Virus record (IMG/VR): IMGVR_UViG_3300049259_000403
Coordinates: 1 to 36,530 of that record
DNA from: a virus
Strand: one strand, 5' to 3'
Length of the DNA: 36,530 bases
In this document: positions 1,158 to 15,518 of the stretch, piece by piece
How positions within the stretch are numbered: the first letter of the stretch is position 1
Layout: each line of letters starts with the position of its first letter
Made by a program: the position numbers and the translations under genes
Notes under the pieces: generated by a model
Told to the model about the DNA's origin: nothing
Database searches by the model: none
The model's input: the letters and a program-made list of their open reading frames with translations, nothing else

Positions 1158-1454
1158 TCAACCAATCGCCGCGCTGCATTCCGGGCAGACGGTCAGGGCG
1201 GTGTCTTTGGTCGTGAATTCGCAATCGAGGTTGTCGCAGAAGCGTGCGCCTTCGAGATTGGCAGCCGTTTCGCGGTCGCCCCAGCGGTCCTCGATGGCTT
1301 CGAGCGCCTCACGGATGAGTGTGGCTTCCGCGCTGATGACCCAAGGGACGAATGTCGGCTTCGGCTGCGTCGCCATCTCAAGGAAGCGCACCATGCGGGC
1401 GCTTCGAGTTTGCAGCTTGCGGATCAACATCCAGTCGGGATCGGGAGCGCTCAC
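1158..1454 (-). CDS. Small putative zinc-binding hypothetical protein
   Basis: The most economical start is GTG at 1454, which overlaps the upstream stop as GTGA and gives 98 residues. An ATG eight codons further in is also possible. The C-terminus carries C-D-N-L-D-C followed about 15 residues later by C-P-E-C, a pair of Cys knuckles typical of small zinc ribbons. The middle part is a charged helix with E-A-L-E-A-I-E-D-R-W. The ribbon suggests nucleic-acid or protein binding, but nothing more specific is visible. Confidence 0.65.
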   Translation of the reverse strand: MSAPDPDWMLIRKLQTRSARMVRFLEMATQPKPTFVPWVISAEATLIREALEAIEDRWGDRETAANLEGARFCDNLDCEFTTKDTALTVCPECSAAIG

Positions 1455-1741
1455 AGGCCCAGCTCGGTGCGAGCCTTGCCGACAGCGGTGATGTAGCGAT
1501 CTACCGACCAGCCATTTTCGAACGCTTCGTAAGCGCCGTCGATGCTGTATCCGTCTTCCCAATCGCAGCCATCGAGGCCGCGCGAGGTGCCGTTATCGAA
1601 CCGGCCATCCCATGCGCGAGAAACGATCTCGATGCGGGCGCGATTGTAGAAGGCCGTCCATGCGCGCTCGGACCGGCTCTCGCCGCCCATCTCGTATTCA
1701 TGCTCACGGCGGGCGATCTCAAGATCGGTAGCGTCGAACAT
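1451..1741 (-). CDS. Hypothetical protein, first gene of leftward operon
   Basis: ATG at 1741 is preferred over the in-frame ATG at 1756 because the GGAGGA ribosome-binding site lies between them, 4-6 nt before 1741. This gives 96 residues. The protein is acidic, with many Trp, Tyr, Asp and Glu, and its C-terminal half carries F-E-N-G-W-S-V-D-R-Y-I. It has no membrane segment. It is the first gene downstream of the inferred leftward promoter (1792-1820) with its two operator sites, so it should be repressed in the lysogen and made early after induction. Family not recognised. Confidence 0.7.
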   Translation of the reverse strand: MFDATDLEIARREHEYEMGGESRSERAWTAFYNRARIEIVSRAWDGRFDNGTSRGLDGCDWEDGYSIDGAYEAFENGWSVDRYITAVGKARTELGL

Positions 1742-1791
1742 CGCTTCCTCCTCCATTCACCGACGCCGGGTGGCTGGTCGGTGTGAGGGAG

Positions 1792-1820
1792 GACGTAGTT
1801 GCTTACGAGCAACCTGTCAA
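1792..1820 (-). promoter_or_regulatory. Inferred leftward early promoter (PL-like)
   Basis: Reading leftward, a perfect TTGACA -35 box (1820-1815) is followed by a 17-nt spacer and a weak -10 box TACGTC (1797-1792). The spacer is almost exactly one 16-bp operator palindrome. The -10 matches the consensus poorly, so the claim rests on the -35 box, the spacing and the parallel with the rightward promoter at 3020-3048. It would drive the leftward genes starting at 1741. Confidence 0.5.
1798..1813. promoter_or_regulatory. Repressor operator OL1 (GTTG-N8-CAAC)
   Basis: The sequence GTTGCTTACGAGCAAC is an inverted repeat with arms GTTGCT and AGCAAC. It fills the spacer between the leftward -35 and -10 boxes. 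The same 16-bp pattern occurs at 1829, 2975 and 3026, around the repressor gene and nowhere else that I noticed. Confidence 0.7.
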
Positions 1821-1828
1821 CGATGGAA

Positions 1829-1844
1829 GTTGGCTTAAAGCAAC
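1829..1844. promoter_or_regulatory. Repressor operator OL2 (GTTG-N8-CAAC)
   Basis: GTTGGCTTAAAGCAAC is the second copy of the pattern, centred 31 bp from OL1. This is close to three helical turns, so both sites face the same side of the DNA. It lies just upstream of the leftward -35 box. Confidence 0.65.
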
Positions 1845-1868
1845 TTTAATGGCAGCGGAGGCGTGTCA

Positions 1869-2414
1869 TTATTCTGACAACGAGTTCGTGCCGTAGAGGT
1901 TGATGCTGCCGATCAACGCGCTTGTGATGTAGAGATAGCCAATGTCGGCGGGCTTGGCGCCCTCGATCAGGAAGGTCACCTCGGACCATCCCGCAGGTAA
2001 GATTTTGGCGGTAATCTTAGGTTGTCCAAGCGAGTGGGCATCCGATGTTTTCTCGCCGTCCTTGGTCAAGGAGCCCCAATGGCCATACAGCGTCATTTCG
2101 GTGATCGTCGCCGTGGTAGGGTTGCCAATGCGGAGACGCACCTTCGAACCGGAGCCTTCCGCGGTAATGCCCTTTAATTCGAAAGTGAGTTTGCCGATGT
2201 CGGTGTCGATGATCGTGTAGCCAGTGTCGGACCGCTTAAGCGTAGGGTCGGTTTCGGCATTCCGCTCAAGCGTCTCGACACGCTCGGTGAGCGCCTTGAT
2301 CTGCGCCTCAGTAAGCGAGTCCTGGGTCGGGACTGGCGCCGGCTGATTGCAGCCCGCTAGAAGAACAGTTGCCGCGAGCGCGCTGGCAAGATGAATGCGA
2401 TAGGTGTTGCCCAT
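1869..2414 (-). CDS. Lipoprotein co-expressed with the repressor (DUF3251/YajI-like)
   Basis: This 181-residue protein begins with a type II signal peptide: M-G-N-T-Y-R, a hydrophobic run, then the lipobox L-L-A-G-C with the lipidated Cys at residue 22. A short Pro-rich linker and a helix (A-L-T-E-R-V-E-T-L-E-R) follow, then a beta-rich domain with L-R-I-G-N-P-T and Y-G-H-W-G. That part resembles the DUF3251/YajI lipoprotein family as I remember it. The ATG at 2414 has GGAG 6 nt upstream and lies 58 nt inside the repressor gene, so both should share a transcript and be made in the lysogen. It probably sits in the inner or outer membrane. A role in superinfection exclusion or surface change is inference from its position. 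Confidence 0.8.
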   Translation of the reverse strand: MGNTYRIHLASALAATVLLAGCNQPAPVPTQDSLTEAQIKALTERVETLERNAETDPTLKRSDTGYTIIDTDIGKLTFELKGITAEGSGSKVRLRIGNPTTATITEMTLYGHWGSLTKDGEKTSDAHSLGQPKITAKILPAGWSEVTFLIEGAKPADIGYLYITSALIGSINLYGTNSLSE

Positions 2415-2965
2415 TCGATCTCCACGTTCTCAATCGGAGGAGCATTCAGCGAAAGCAGGGTGAAACGGCCGGCCTCATCGCCCTTGATGAGCTGTTTCAG
2501 GAACGTCTCCCCCGTGACGAGCCTGACGGCACATTCCTCCCCGACGTAATCCTCCAGCAGCCCGTCGTGATGGCGCTGGATGTAGATGATGTCGCCATCT
2601 TTATACTTGGGCAGCATCGATGCGCCTCGGACGATGAGAGCCTCTAGCGGGCCCGACGTTGCTGGCGGCCTAGGCACGAACTCGTCCGTCGTGAACTCCT
2701 CGAATACGATCGTCCCGCCAGCGCCGATGTAGCCGACAATCGAAACTGGCGGTGCTGAGAGCAGCTTGTCGAGCGAGACATCGAGAACGCTCGCGATCCG
2801 CGACAACGTGCCGATCTTGATATCGCCATTCCGTTCGAAAATACTTTTCACCAGCGTCCGGTTGTCGCCCACAGCCAGCGAGAGCGTCGTCGGCTTGATG
2901 CCTTTGCGCTCCATCGCTTTCCGCAGGTTATCCCGGAAGGCTTCCATGTCGAACAGTTCACCCAT
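2357..2965 (-). CDS. HTH / S24-peptidase-like phage repressor (CI-type)
   Basis: The 202-residue form starting at ATG 2965 has an N-terminal helix-turn-helix region (about residues 8-66, with L-S-L-A-V-G-D-N-R-T-L-V-K) and a C-terminal LexA/CI-like domain. The S24 serine lies in G-A-S-M-L-P (Ser116) and the general-base lysine in T-F-L-K-Q-L (Lys157). No clear Ala-Gly self-cleavage site is seen in the linker, although G-A-G-G near residue 82 is a possible loop. An ATG at 2947 is an alternative start; both lack a good ribosome-binding site, and longer upstream starts would cross the operator at 2975-2990. It should bind the four GTTG-N8-CAAC sites and maintain lysogeny. The downstream lipoprotein gene overlaps its 3' end. 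Confidence 0.88.
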   Translation of the reverse strand: MGELFDMEAFRDNLRKAMERKGIKPTTLSLAVGDNRTLVKSIFERNGDIKIGTLSRIASVLDVSLDKLLSAPPVSIVGYIGAGGTIVFEEFTTDEFVPRPPATSGPLEALIVRGASMLPKYKDGDIIYIQRHHDGLLEDYVGEECAVRLVTGETFLKQLIKGDEAGRFTLLSLNAPPIENVEIEWATPIAFILPARSRQLFF

Positions 2966-2974
2966 CCACAATGA

Positions 2975-2990
2975 GTTGGGTGAAAACAAC
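2975..2990. promoter_or_regulatory. Repressor operator OR2 (GTTG-N8-CAAC)
   Basis: GTTGGGTGAAAACAAC lies 10 bp upstream of the likely repressor start, so it probably mediates autoregulation. Its outer GTTG and CAAC are intact but the inner arms are less symmetric. Its centre is 51 bp from the site at 3026, near five helical turns. Confidence 0.6.
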
Positions 2991-3019
2991 CTTTTTGCGA
3001 AGGCGGTATCGAAACCACC

Positions 3020-3048
3020 TTGCAAGTTGCCTGCAAGCAACTTATGAT
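3020..3048 (+). promoter_or_regulatory. Inferred rightward early promoter (PR-like)
   Basis: TTGCAA (-35, 3020-3025), a 17-nt spacer holding operator OR1, and TATGAT (-10, 3043-3048, five of six consensus bases). The expected transcription start is about 3054-3057, essentially at the ATG of the first gene at 3057, which has no ribosome-binding site. The message may therefore be leaderless. Confidence 0.65.
3026..3041. promoter_or_regulatory. Repressor operator OR1 (GTTG-N8-CAAC)
   Basis: GTTGCCTGCAAGCAAC sits within a longer palindrome, AAGTTGC-N6-GCAACTT (3024-3043). It fills the spacer of the rightward promoter, so occupancy would block RNA polymerase. Confidence 0.72.
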
Positions 3049-3056
3049 CCATCGCC

Positions 3057-3248
3057 ATGCACACGCTACTCGAAGACATTCAGGCCTTCCTGACCGCGCA
3101 TGAGATGAAGCCGACGAGGTTCGGCGAACTCGCGATGAACGACAAGGGCTTCGTGATCCGGCTGACCAATGGTCGCCGCACCTGGCCTGAGACGGAGGCA
3201 AAGGTCCGCCGCTTCATGGCGACGTATCGCCCGGACATCGCAGCATGA
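3057..3248 (+). CDS. Small Cro-like helix-turn-helix protein
   Basis: This 63-residue basic protein is the first rightward gene and is divergent from the repressor, the classical position of Cro. The segment from about residue 17 to 45 (K-P-T-R-F-G-E-L-A, then V-I-R-L-T-N-G-R-R) has the spacing of a helix-turn-helix with a recognition helix ending in N-G-R-R. There is no ribosome-binding site, and the promoter predicts a transcript starting at or within a few bases of the ATG. Its stop overlaps the next ATG as ATGA. The likely role is to bind the same operators and shut off the repressor; this is inferred from context, not from a family match. Confidence 0.7.
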   Translation: MHTLLEDIQAFLTAHEMKPTRFGELAMNDKGFVIRLTNGRRTWPETEAKVRRFMATYRPDIAA

Positions 3249-3358
3249 TCCCCGCGCCGTACATCTACCTCCCGGTCCTGCTGACCTGGCGCCGGATCGA
3301 CGCCGCGCACGATCGTCACTTCACCGCTCCCGCGGTCAACGACAATGGGGTCGGGTGA
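3245..3358 (+). CDS. Micro-protein of 37 aa between cro-like gene and methylase
   Basis: ATG 3245 overlaps the upstream stop (ATGA) and the TGA at 3356-3358 overlaps the next ATG (TGATG), so it is locked between two coupled genes. The product starts M-I-P-A-P-Y-I-Y-L-P and has a short hydrophobic stretch followed by a charged tail. It is too short for a family call. It may serve mainly to carry ribosomes to the methylase start. Confidence 0.5.
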   Translation: MIPAPYIYLPVLLTWRRIDAAHDRHFTAPAVNDNGVG

Positions 3359-3864
3359 TGGGGCGCGCGGTCAACGGTCTTGGCCTCGGCAAGTCCGATG
3401 AATGGCACACGCCAAAAAGCGTGTTCGACGCGCTTGGCTGCCGCTTCGATTTGGATGTCGCCGCGCCCGTGGGCGGTCCTCTGCACGTTCCTTGCGAGTC
3501 TTGGTACGATCACGCGAGCCTTGAGCGCTTGTGGTTCGGCTTTGTCTGGATGAACCCGCCCTTCGGCGGTCGAAACGCGCTTTTCCCGTGGATGAGCAAG
3601 TTCTTCGACCACGGCAATGGTATCGCACTGACGCCCGACCGCACTTCGGCCCCGTGGTTCCATTGGTCGTGGCCTCGCGCTGCCGCGGTCCTGTTTGCGC
3701 GCAAGACACCCTTCCTCCTCGCCGATGGTAGCAAGGCAGGATCTCCGGCTTTCGGGACCGTGTTGTGGGCGGTCGGCGACAAGGCAGTCGCCGCACTGAA
3801 AACTGCTCAGGCTTCCGGTTTCGGCCTGCTCGCCACCGTCCACCACGACAGCGCGGTGGCCTAA
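3358..3864 (+). CDS. Phage DNA N6-adenine methyltransferase (Dam type)
   Basis: The ATG at 3358, coupled to the preceding stop, gives 168 residues. The catalytic DPPY-type motif reads N-P-P-F (residues 66-69), preceded by F-V-W-M. The N-terminal D-E-W-H-T-P segment and the D-L-D-V-A-A segment near residue 31 fit the phage Dam family (PF05869), whose members are commonly 150-190 residues. It would transfer a methyl group from SAM to adenine in DNA, protecting phage DNA or marking it for regulation. It is expressed early beside cro. The frame is open upstream to 3169, but that extension overlaps two genes and looks non-coding. Confidence 0.85.
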   Translation: MGRAVNGLGLGKSDEWHTPKSVFDALGCRFDLDVAAPVGGPLHVPCESWYDHASLERLWFGFVWMNPPFGGRNALFPWMSKFFDHGNGIALTPDRTSAPWFHWSWPRAAAVLFARKTPFLLADGSKAGSPAFGTVLWAVGDKAVAALKTAQASGFGLLATVHHDSAVA

Positions 3865-13661: not shown

Positions 13662-15518
13662 ATGCCAGCGATGCCCGCCGCCGACTTCCAATCTCTTGTG
13701 AAGCGGCGGCGGGATAGCTGCGTCAAGTTCACCTCGGGCAAGCCTTCGCGCGAGCGCCGCGAGGCGATGCAGTTCTATCGCGGCGACAACCTGTCCTGCT
13801 ACGGCGATAGCGGGGACGGCCAGTCCACCGTCGTCAGCCGCGACGTGATGGAGGCCATCGAAAGCGTGATGCCTCCCCTGCTCCGTCCCTTCGTGGCGGG
13901 GGAACAGGTGGTCAGCTTCGATCCGGTCGAAGAGACGGACGAGGCATCGACCAAGCAGGCGACGGAATACGTCAACTATGTCCTGCGCCGCGACAACAAC
14001 GTCCTGGACCTGACGCAGACAGGCTTGAAGGATGGGCTGCTCTATCGCCTTGGGATCGCCAAGACGGTCTGCGAAGAGGAAGAGGGCAATCCCGAGGCCT
14101 ACGAAGGTCTGGCAGCCGAGGAACTGGCCGCGCTCGATCCGGCGCGCATCTCGGGCGACATCCTGCTCGATGAGGCGACAGGCACTTACAGCGTCACGCT
14201 CGCGCCGAAGACGATCAAGCGCTACCGGGTTCACATCATCGCGCCCGATGAATTTCTATACGAAGAACGCCTTACGAGCCTGAGGGTCGCAACCTTCTTG
14301 GGCCACCGCAAACAGGTCTCGCTCGCCGATCTGGTCGAAATGGGCATTCCCGAAGAAACGGCGATCAAGGTCAGCAGCGAGAAGCCGAGCGAAGAGAACG
14401 ACGATCGTTTCGACAACGAGGACGACGAGCCGGCGGAACTGGCTTCGAACGACCCGAACCGCATGATCTGGGTCGATGAGTGCTACATCAAGTGCAATTA
14501 CTCGGGCGCCGGGATGGAGTGGCGCAAGGTGCTGCTCGGCGGCTCCGAAACCGCGATCCTGACCAATGAGCCGGCCGACGATCACCCCTACTCCGCGTGG
14601 ACGCCGATTCCGATCCCGCACAAGCTCTCGGGCCTGTCGTTCTACGACCTCAACCGCGATATCCAGATGCAGAAGACGGCGCTGCAGCGGGAGCAACTGA
14701 ATAACCTCTACCTCGTCAATCGGCCGCAGCGCACCGTGCTTGAAGGTCAGGCCAGCATCGACGATCTGCTGCAACCTTCCATCGGTGGAATCGTCCGCGT
14801 GAAGGATCACAACGCGGTCAAGCTGCTGACAACGCCGTTCGTCGCCGATGCCGCCTTCCCGATGATCGAATATCTCGATGGCGTGCGCGAGGCTCGCACG
14901 GGCGTCACCCGCTACAACCAGGGCATGGACGCCAACAGCCTGAACAAGACGGCGACGGGCATCAACATCATCTCCAACAACTCGCAGCAGCGCCAGGAAC
15001 TGGTCGCGCGGCAGTTCGGTGAGTTCTTGAAGGACATTTTCGAGAAGCTGCTCGCCTTGGTCATCGCGCATTCCGAGGAAGCCGATGTCGTTCGGCTGCT
15101 CAACACCTTCGTCCCGTGGCCTGAGGAATACGACACGACCGTCTCGGTGGGCCTCGGCACCAACAACAAGGATCAACTCGTCGGGCACCTGATGGGACTG
15201 CTGCAGCTCGATCAGAGCATCGTGCAACTGCAGCAGGGCGTGAACGGCCCGCTCCTGACGGCTGCGAACATCTATGAGAAGCTGAAGCGCCTACCTGAGG
15301 CGATGGGCATGAAGGGCACGTTCTACAGCGACCCGTCGCAGATGCCGCCGGCAGAGCAGGGCGGACAGGATCAGCCGGAACAGCCCTCGCCCGATCAGCA
15401 GTTGAAGGCGCAGACCGACCTGCAGAAGACGCACATGGACAACCAGACCGATCTCGCGATTGCCCAGATGCGGCAGCCGCCGGCGTTCCCGGTCATTGAT
15501 GGCGGATTGGCCGGATGA
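13662..15518 (+). CDS. Portal protein (podovirus type)
   Basis: 618 residues. The N-terminal third has E-A-M-Q-F-Y-R-G-D, V-V-S-R-D-V-M-E-A-I-E-S-V-M-P-P-L-L-R and Q-A-T-E-Y-V-N-Y-V-L-R-R-D, segments shared by the large portal proteins of podoviruses and SU10-like phages as I know them. The middle has a long helix region (L-N-R-D-I-Q-M-Q-K-T-A-L-Q-R-E-Q) and the C-terminus is Gln/Pro-rich. Twelve copies form the DNA channel at the head vertex and dock the adaptor. A second ATG three codons downstream is possible. The end overlaps the next gene (ATGA). Confidence 0.92.
   Translation: MPAMPAADFQSLVKRRRDSCVKFTSGKPSRERREAMQFYRGDNLSCYGDSGDGQSTVVSRDVMEAIESVMPPLLRPFVAGEQVVSFDPVEETDEASTKQATEYVNYVLRRDNNVLDLTQTGLKDGLLYRLGIAKTVCEEEEGNPEAYEGLAAEELAALDPARISGDILLDEATGTYSVTLAPKTIKRYRVHIIAPDEFLYEERLTSLRVATFLGHRKQVSLADLVEMGIPEETAIKVSSEKPSEENDDRFDNEDDEPAELASNDPNRMIWVDECYIKCNYSGAGMEWRKVLLGGSETAILTNEPADDHPYSAWTPIPIPHKLSGLSFYDLNRDIQMQKTALQREQLNNLYLVNRPQRTVLEGQASIDDLLQPSIGGIVRVKDHNAVKLLTTPFVADAAFPMIEYLDGVREARTGVTRYNQGMDANSLNKTATGINIISNNSQQRQELVARQFGEFLKDIFEKLLALVIAHSEEADVVRLLNTFVPWPEEYDTTVSVGLGTNNKDQLVGHLMGLLQLDQSIVQLQQGVNGPLLTAANIYEKLKRLPEAMGMKGTFYSDPSQMPPAEQGGQDQPEQPSPDQQLKAQTDLQKTHMDNQTDLAIAQMRQPPAFPVIDGGLAG

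Follow-up and report, generated by a model that had tools for sequence, protein, structure and literature searches.

Most of what is known in detail about lambda-type switches comes from phages of enteric bacteria, and in lambda and 434 the CI and Cro proteins use the same operators. Lambda has three operators on each side, with OL and OR about 2.3 kb apart (PMC5880393); across the loci compared here this distance was 0.7-1.9 kb. In N15 and phiKO2 the operators, each 16 bp long, number five; the interval between the repressor gene and cro holds three of them and the left side two, and the repressors of these phages are without the self-cleavage residues (PMC4997575) that are present in the repressor studied here. 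Staphylococcus phage phi11 has three homologous operators between its divergent cI and cro genes, as does the present locus; unlike here, a left promoter-operator had yet to be identified there (PMC3991615).

We studied the immunity region of a virus record of 36,530 bp; the window, i.e., the whole stretch of DNA analysed, covers its full length. It was compared with 15 relatives (14 virus records and one Sphingomonas plasmid), gathered by protein searches and operator-pattern searches. The resulting 16 loci include near relatives (L008 and L009) and a duplicate (L016 of L015), and their records are possibly fragments. Judged from these sequences, the sites described below are very probably the operators of the phage's CI-like repressor in a lambda-type immunity region, with OR1, a weak OR2 and OR3 on the right and OL1 and OL2 on the left.

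Sites and predicted promoters of the immunity region

The features of the region are as follows.

1451..1741, minus strand: first gene of the leftward operon, function not assigned, preceded by GGAGGAGGAA
1792..1820, minus strand: P_L, predicted leftward promoter, TTGACA (1820-1815), 17-bp spacer, TACGTC (1797-1792)
1798..1813, plus strand: OL1, GTTGCTTACGAGCAAC, in the P_L spacer, immediately behind TTGACA-G when read along the minus strand
1829..1844, plus strand: OL2, GTTGGCTTAAAGCAAC, 31 bp from OL1
1869..2414, minus strand: lipoprotein-like gene with lipobox LLAGC, between the repressor and OL
2357..2965, minus strand: CI-like repressor, ATG at 2965 (or 2947), N-terminal HTH and C-terminal S24 domain
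2972..3001, minus strand: P_RM, tentative repressor promoter, TTCGCA (3001-2996), weak AACTCA (2977-2972), overlapped by OR3
2975..2990, plus strand: OR3, GTTGGGTGAAAACAAC, just upstream of the repressor start
3002..3019, no strand: OR2 candidate, degenerate palindrome GGCGGTATCGAAACCACC between OR1 and OR3, 16-bp register 3003-3018
3020..3048, plus strand: P_R, predicted to drive cro and the lytic operon, TTGCAA (3020-3025), 17-bp spacer, TATGAT (3043-3048)
3026..3041, plus strand: OR1, GTTGCCTGCAAGCAAC, which takes up the cro promoter spacer and, in the aligned promoters, follows the -35 at 0 bp
3057..3248, plus strand: Cro-like protein, 63 aa, first gene of the rightward operon

The motif GTTG-N8-CAAC (GTTGNNNNNNNNCAAC) had four exact matches in the record, where dinucleotide shuffles predicted 0.36, and four or more matches occurred in 0 of 100 such shuffles. 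An earlier note on this DNA had described these 16-bp sites and taken them for the operators of a lambda-like switch; they lie at 1798-1813, 1829-1844, 2975-2990 and 3026-3041, with spacings of 31 bp (left pair) and 51 bp (right pair) just as it gave them, and its question about further equally good matches was answered by the absence of any other exact match in the 36,530 bp. Its statement that the sites flank the repressor operon on both sides was also borne out: all four fall inside two gaps of 127 and 91 bp, which make up 0.5% of the record's positions and are the promoter gaps on either side of that operon. Local shuffling of the two gaps yielded at most two sites in 20,000 trials. When one mismatch was permitted, the whole record gave 21 matches against 11.75 expected; these were mostly background and the search was dropped, so the signal resides in the exact sites. 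In the window the sites are extended palindromes with the half-site GTTGCTT.

On the right, OR1 was equivalently placed in all 16 loci, and the order -35, operator, -10 found in P_R was common to the relatives, most clearly in the GTTGGAT class (see below). The OR2 candidate is palindromic at seven of nine pairs but its score against the half-site of this phage is just 8/14, a value that about 1% of positions reach; its centre is 23 and 28 bp from those of the two right-hand sites, and a weak operator at a matching spacing was found in 16 of 16 loci. Since OR2 lies between the right-hand sites, the natural close pairs are OR1-OR2 and OL1-OL2, and the 51-bp pair, correctly spaced in the earlier note, is not a simple pair of two cooperating neighbours. 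The P_RM call was made from sequence and its -10 is a poor match; CTTCGCAAAA of this tentative promoter is conserved in L001, L002 and L020, three loci that also share the OR3-OR1 distance of 51 bp.

On the left, a perfect TTGACA stands at the place of P_L in 15 of the 16 loci and TTGACG in L001, with OL1 located 1-4 bp behind this hexamer in every locus; the -10 of P_L is weak in the window. The OL1-OL2 spacing was 30-33 bp throughout (16/16), OL2 being weak in L014. A candidate third left operator at 1902-1917, a near match (10/14) at a non-conserved position, was rejected. The two clusters thus hold three operators on the right and two on the left, rather than three each.

The repressor and its neighbours

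The repressor matched Peptidase_S24 (PF00717, 1.3e-9) above the Pfam cut-off and HTH_26 below it, and its PHROG match was a transcriptional repressor (1.3e-20). The structure model (mean pLDDT 83) has the layout of lambda CI, and the best PDB match found by Foldseek was full-length lambda CI (3bdn, E 1.7e-7); at 19% identity over the structural alignment, the sequence relation is only distant. Residues A82-G83, S116 and K157 were invariant in an alignment of 12 repressor sequences. From the sequence, A82-G83 would be the cleavage site, and S116 and K157 the catalytic pair, of a repressor of the S24 self-cleaving type.

The last 58 bp of the repressor gene (2357-2414) also encode, in another frame, the start and signal peptide of the lipoprotein-like gene, an overlap with the repressor 3' end likewise seen in L001 and L002. 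The place between repressor and OL that rexAB takes in lambda appeared as a variable cargo site. It is occupied in the window (1869-2414, minus strand), L001 (5666-6055), L002 (5654-6070), L007, L014, L017 and L029, with lipoprotein-like genes in six loci and a PemK/MazF-like toxin in L014 (Pfam 1.1e-13), and is without an evident gene in L020, L008, L009, L015 and L033. A role of these genes in superinfection exclusion or lysogen fitness would be plausible.

After cro, the rightward operon encodes a Dam-like methyltransferase, ERF, YqaJ, NinB, RusA, primase/helicase, terminase, portal and head genes. The replication genes sit in this operon, and no replication-protein PHROG match was found among the leftward genes scanned. 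LUZ24-type and tf podoviruses are virulent phages. The window's portal protein (13662-15518) is about 32% like those of the LUZ24-type and tf podoviruses of Pseudomonas, and is joined here to a lambda-like immunity region. It had no match in seven relatives that share the immunity region, in a search run with no positive control on possibly partial records; this suggests that the module moves between phage types.

Operator classes and repressor specificity

The relatives conserve the gene order and have repressors 36-66% identical, and each carries, at the equivalent positions, a palindrome of different letters. The half-sites fall into the classes GTTGCTT, GTTGGAT, GTAGGAT, GGGGGAA, GTGGGAT and GTGTGAT. 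The conservation beside the repressor that the earlier note had asked for was therefore found in 15 further loci as sites in equivalent positions, while GTTG/CAAC as a motif holds for the window phage and gives way to other letters in its relatives. The distance from OR1 to the annotated cro start was 11.5-23.5 bp in 16 of 16 loci (19.5-23.5 bp without L008). OR1 and OR2 are 22-23 bp apart, or 32-33 bp in the GGGGGAA and GTGGGAT classes; the step of 10 bp is about one helical turn and so fits neighbours facing the same side of the DNA. OR3 was recognisable in ten of the 16 loci, at 51 bp from OR1, 60 bp in L030 or 69-70 bp in the GGGGGAA and GTGGGAT classes, and was not recognisable in L007, L008, L009, L029, L033 and L037.

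The plasmid locus, L030, is from S. parapaucimobilis and has a 43% identical repressor and operators of the GTGTGAT class; the family is labelled sphingomonad after this one member only. A nucleotide search of phage records with positions 1400-3400 gave no match. A repressor-alignment scan of genome contigs gave only a distant S24 protein from Devosia, and 385 genomes of the class to which that Devosia genome belongs held only distant repressors (identity ≤39%), which were left out of the footprinting. Three distant loci with other repressor types and no comparable operators (L003, L004 and L010) were set aside.

Each pattern tested kept to its own immunity region and did not occur in records of the other classes. 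GTTGGN6CCAAC was found at the immunity sites in the four GTTGGAT-class records tested and in none of six others, and GGGGAN4TCCCC had two occurrences per record in the three GGGGGAA-class records tested and none in five others. When IMG/VR was scanned for the left-operator pattern and nothing else, one new record (L029) came up beside three known ones; with the GGGGGA pattern, three new records (L033, L035 and L037) came up beside four known. These four new records were found without any protein query, and each has repressor and Cro homologues. The operator-first searches and the absences across classes are independent of half-site choice and relatedness.

Operator similarity followed the identity of the repressor HTH with a Mantel r of 0.84 (0 of 20,000 permutations as high), a correlation inflated by relatedness; the half-sites were derived from the same loci that were scored. 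Partial r was 0.74 for the HTH given the C-domain and -0.07 for the C-domain given the HTH, shared ancestry being incompletely removed by this procedure. L029 is an independent domain exchange pointing in the same direction: its repressor (103-855) combines the family HTH with an unrelated C-terminal half without the S24 residues, and its operators are unchanged. The switch of L029 is possibly non-inducible or differently induced.

Cro homologues are found at the equivalent place in all relatives. The Cro-like protein is predicted as a five-helix HTH fold and its model weakly resembles 434 Cro, structural matches being weak (best E 0.25). The predicted -10 of cro ends 8 bp before the ATG (window 3043-3057), and this distance is similarly short in the relatives, so cro may be transcribed with no leader or almost none. 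Instead of being specific to the repressor, the sites could belong mainly to this protein, or be used by both to the same extent, in the manner of lambda; cro adjoins OR1, its product has a predicted HTH fold, and lambda and 434 provide the precedent for both proteins on the same operators. We regard this as improbable, given that operator similarity kept a partial r of 0.78 with the repressor HTH when set against Cro, and only 0.02 with the Cro HTH once the repressor HTH was accounted for, and that a Cro homologue 59-65% identical in another early-gene context (L012, 4001-4198) had beside it neither a homologous repressor nor operator enrichment. The Cro of phiKO2 binds OR3 only (PMC4997575).

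The co-variation argues against an equal use of the operators by Cro and repressor. The recognition region of Cro, xLNDKxFV, is nearly constant among the relatives, and one tentative reading, to which we give somewhat less than even weight, is that the Cro-like protein ignores the class-specific operator letters, staying near constant while repressor and operators shift into at least six specificities. If so, Cro would act via another site, a shared feature or protein contact, and immunity specificity could change by alteration of repressor and operator with Cro unaltered.

Targets of a host regulator, for instance a host HTH factor, would fit the position in promoters equally well, but the operator letters switch with the HTH of the phage repressor, including the domain swap of L029, under a constant geometry, which leaves very little room for this explanation. 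Chance inverted repeats or RNA stem-loops (terminators) near promoters are hardly credible either: GTTG...CAAC can form short hairpins, but four sites were found where 0.36 were expected, no terminator-like site was found in the immunity region, and positions inside promoter spacers are conserved in 16 loci with differing letters.

Proposed switch and comparison with known systems

Sites at equivalent positions in 15 further loci, with letters that shift with the repressor HTH, point to a lambda-type dormancy switch run by the CI-like repressor. From the sites, their positions, the co-variation with the HTH and the protein domains, all read in the sequence, we infer binding, cooperativity, OL-OR looping, self-cleavage and a role for Cro. 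Repressor dimers bound to OR1 and OL1 in a lysogen would block RNA polymerase at the cro/lytic and leftward promoters, because these operators fill the -35/-10 spacers of P_R and P_L. OR2 and OL2, about two to three helical turns away, would stabilise repression by side-by-side contacts, and the distance of OL from OR would make looping possible. OR3, lying over the repressor promoter, would limit the repressor's own synthesis; being unrecognisable in six loci, this autoregulation may vary and is perhaps not universal. RecA-triggered self-cleavage through the S24 domain (Ala-Gly site, Ser and Lys) would lift repression, after which Cro would be made first.

The loci combine a single conserved frame with at least six repressor/operator specificities found in nature, and one of the repressors has a replaced C-terminal half; this offers a set for working out a recognition code. 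It could help predict which of these phages exclude each other and could serve for testing whether Cro must share the repressor's operators, and the operator patterns locate these prophages without protein similarity. Neither the operator family nor the repressor/operator classes were found described in the literature searched, a weak absence given that most subscription journals lay outside it.

Among known systems, immB of N15/phiKO2 is the closest in layout, with three OR and two OL operators of 16 bp. Its operators are of the form T-A-N10-T-A. The gene under the control of its OL is repA, in a prophage that is a linear plasmid; here OL precedes an operon of unassigned genes. The lambdoid heteroimmune set (434, P22, 933W) likewise combines a constant plan with exchangeable repressor/operator specificity; the present loci form a separate, alphaproteobacterial family. 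In phi11, CI and Cro bind different sites. Lambda resembles our loci in that repressor and cro diverge, that operators lie in P_R and in P_L, that the repressor joins an HTH to a C-domain of self-cleaving type, and that cargo (rexAB in lambda) stands between repressor and OL. It differs in operator sequences, in having three left operators where two are recognisable here, the latter forming a pair 30-33 bp apart, and in its Cro. The plan would be the known one of a lambda-type switch, and the apparent departure from lambda is a Cro that does not co-vary with the operators.
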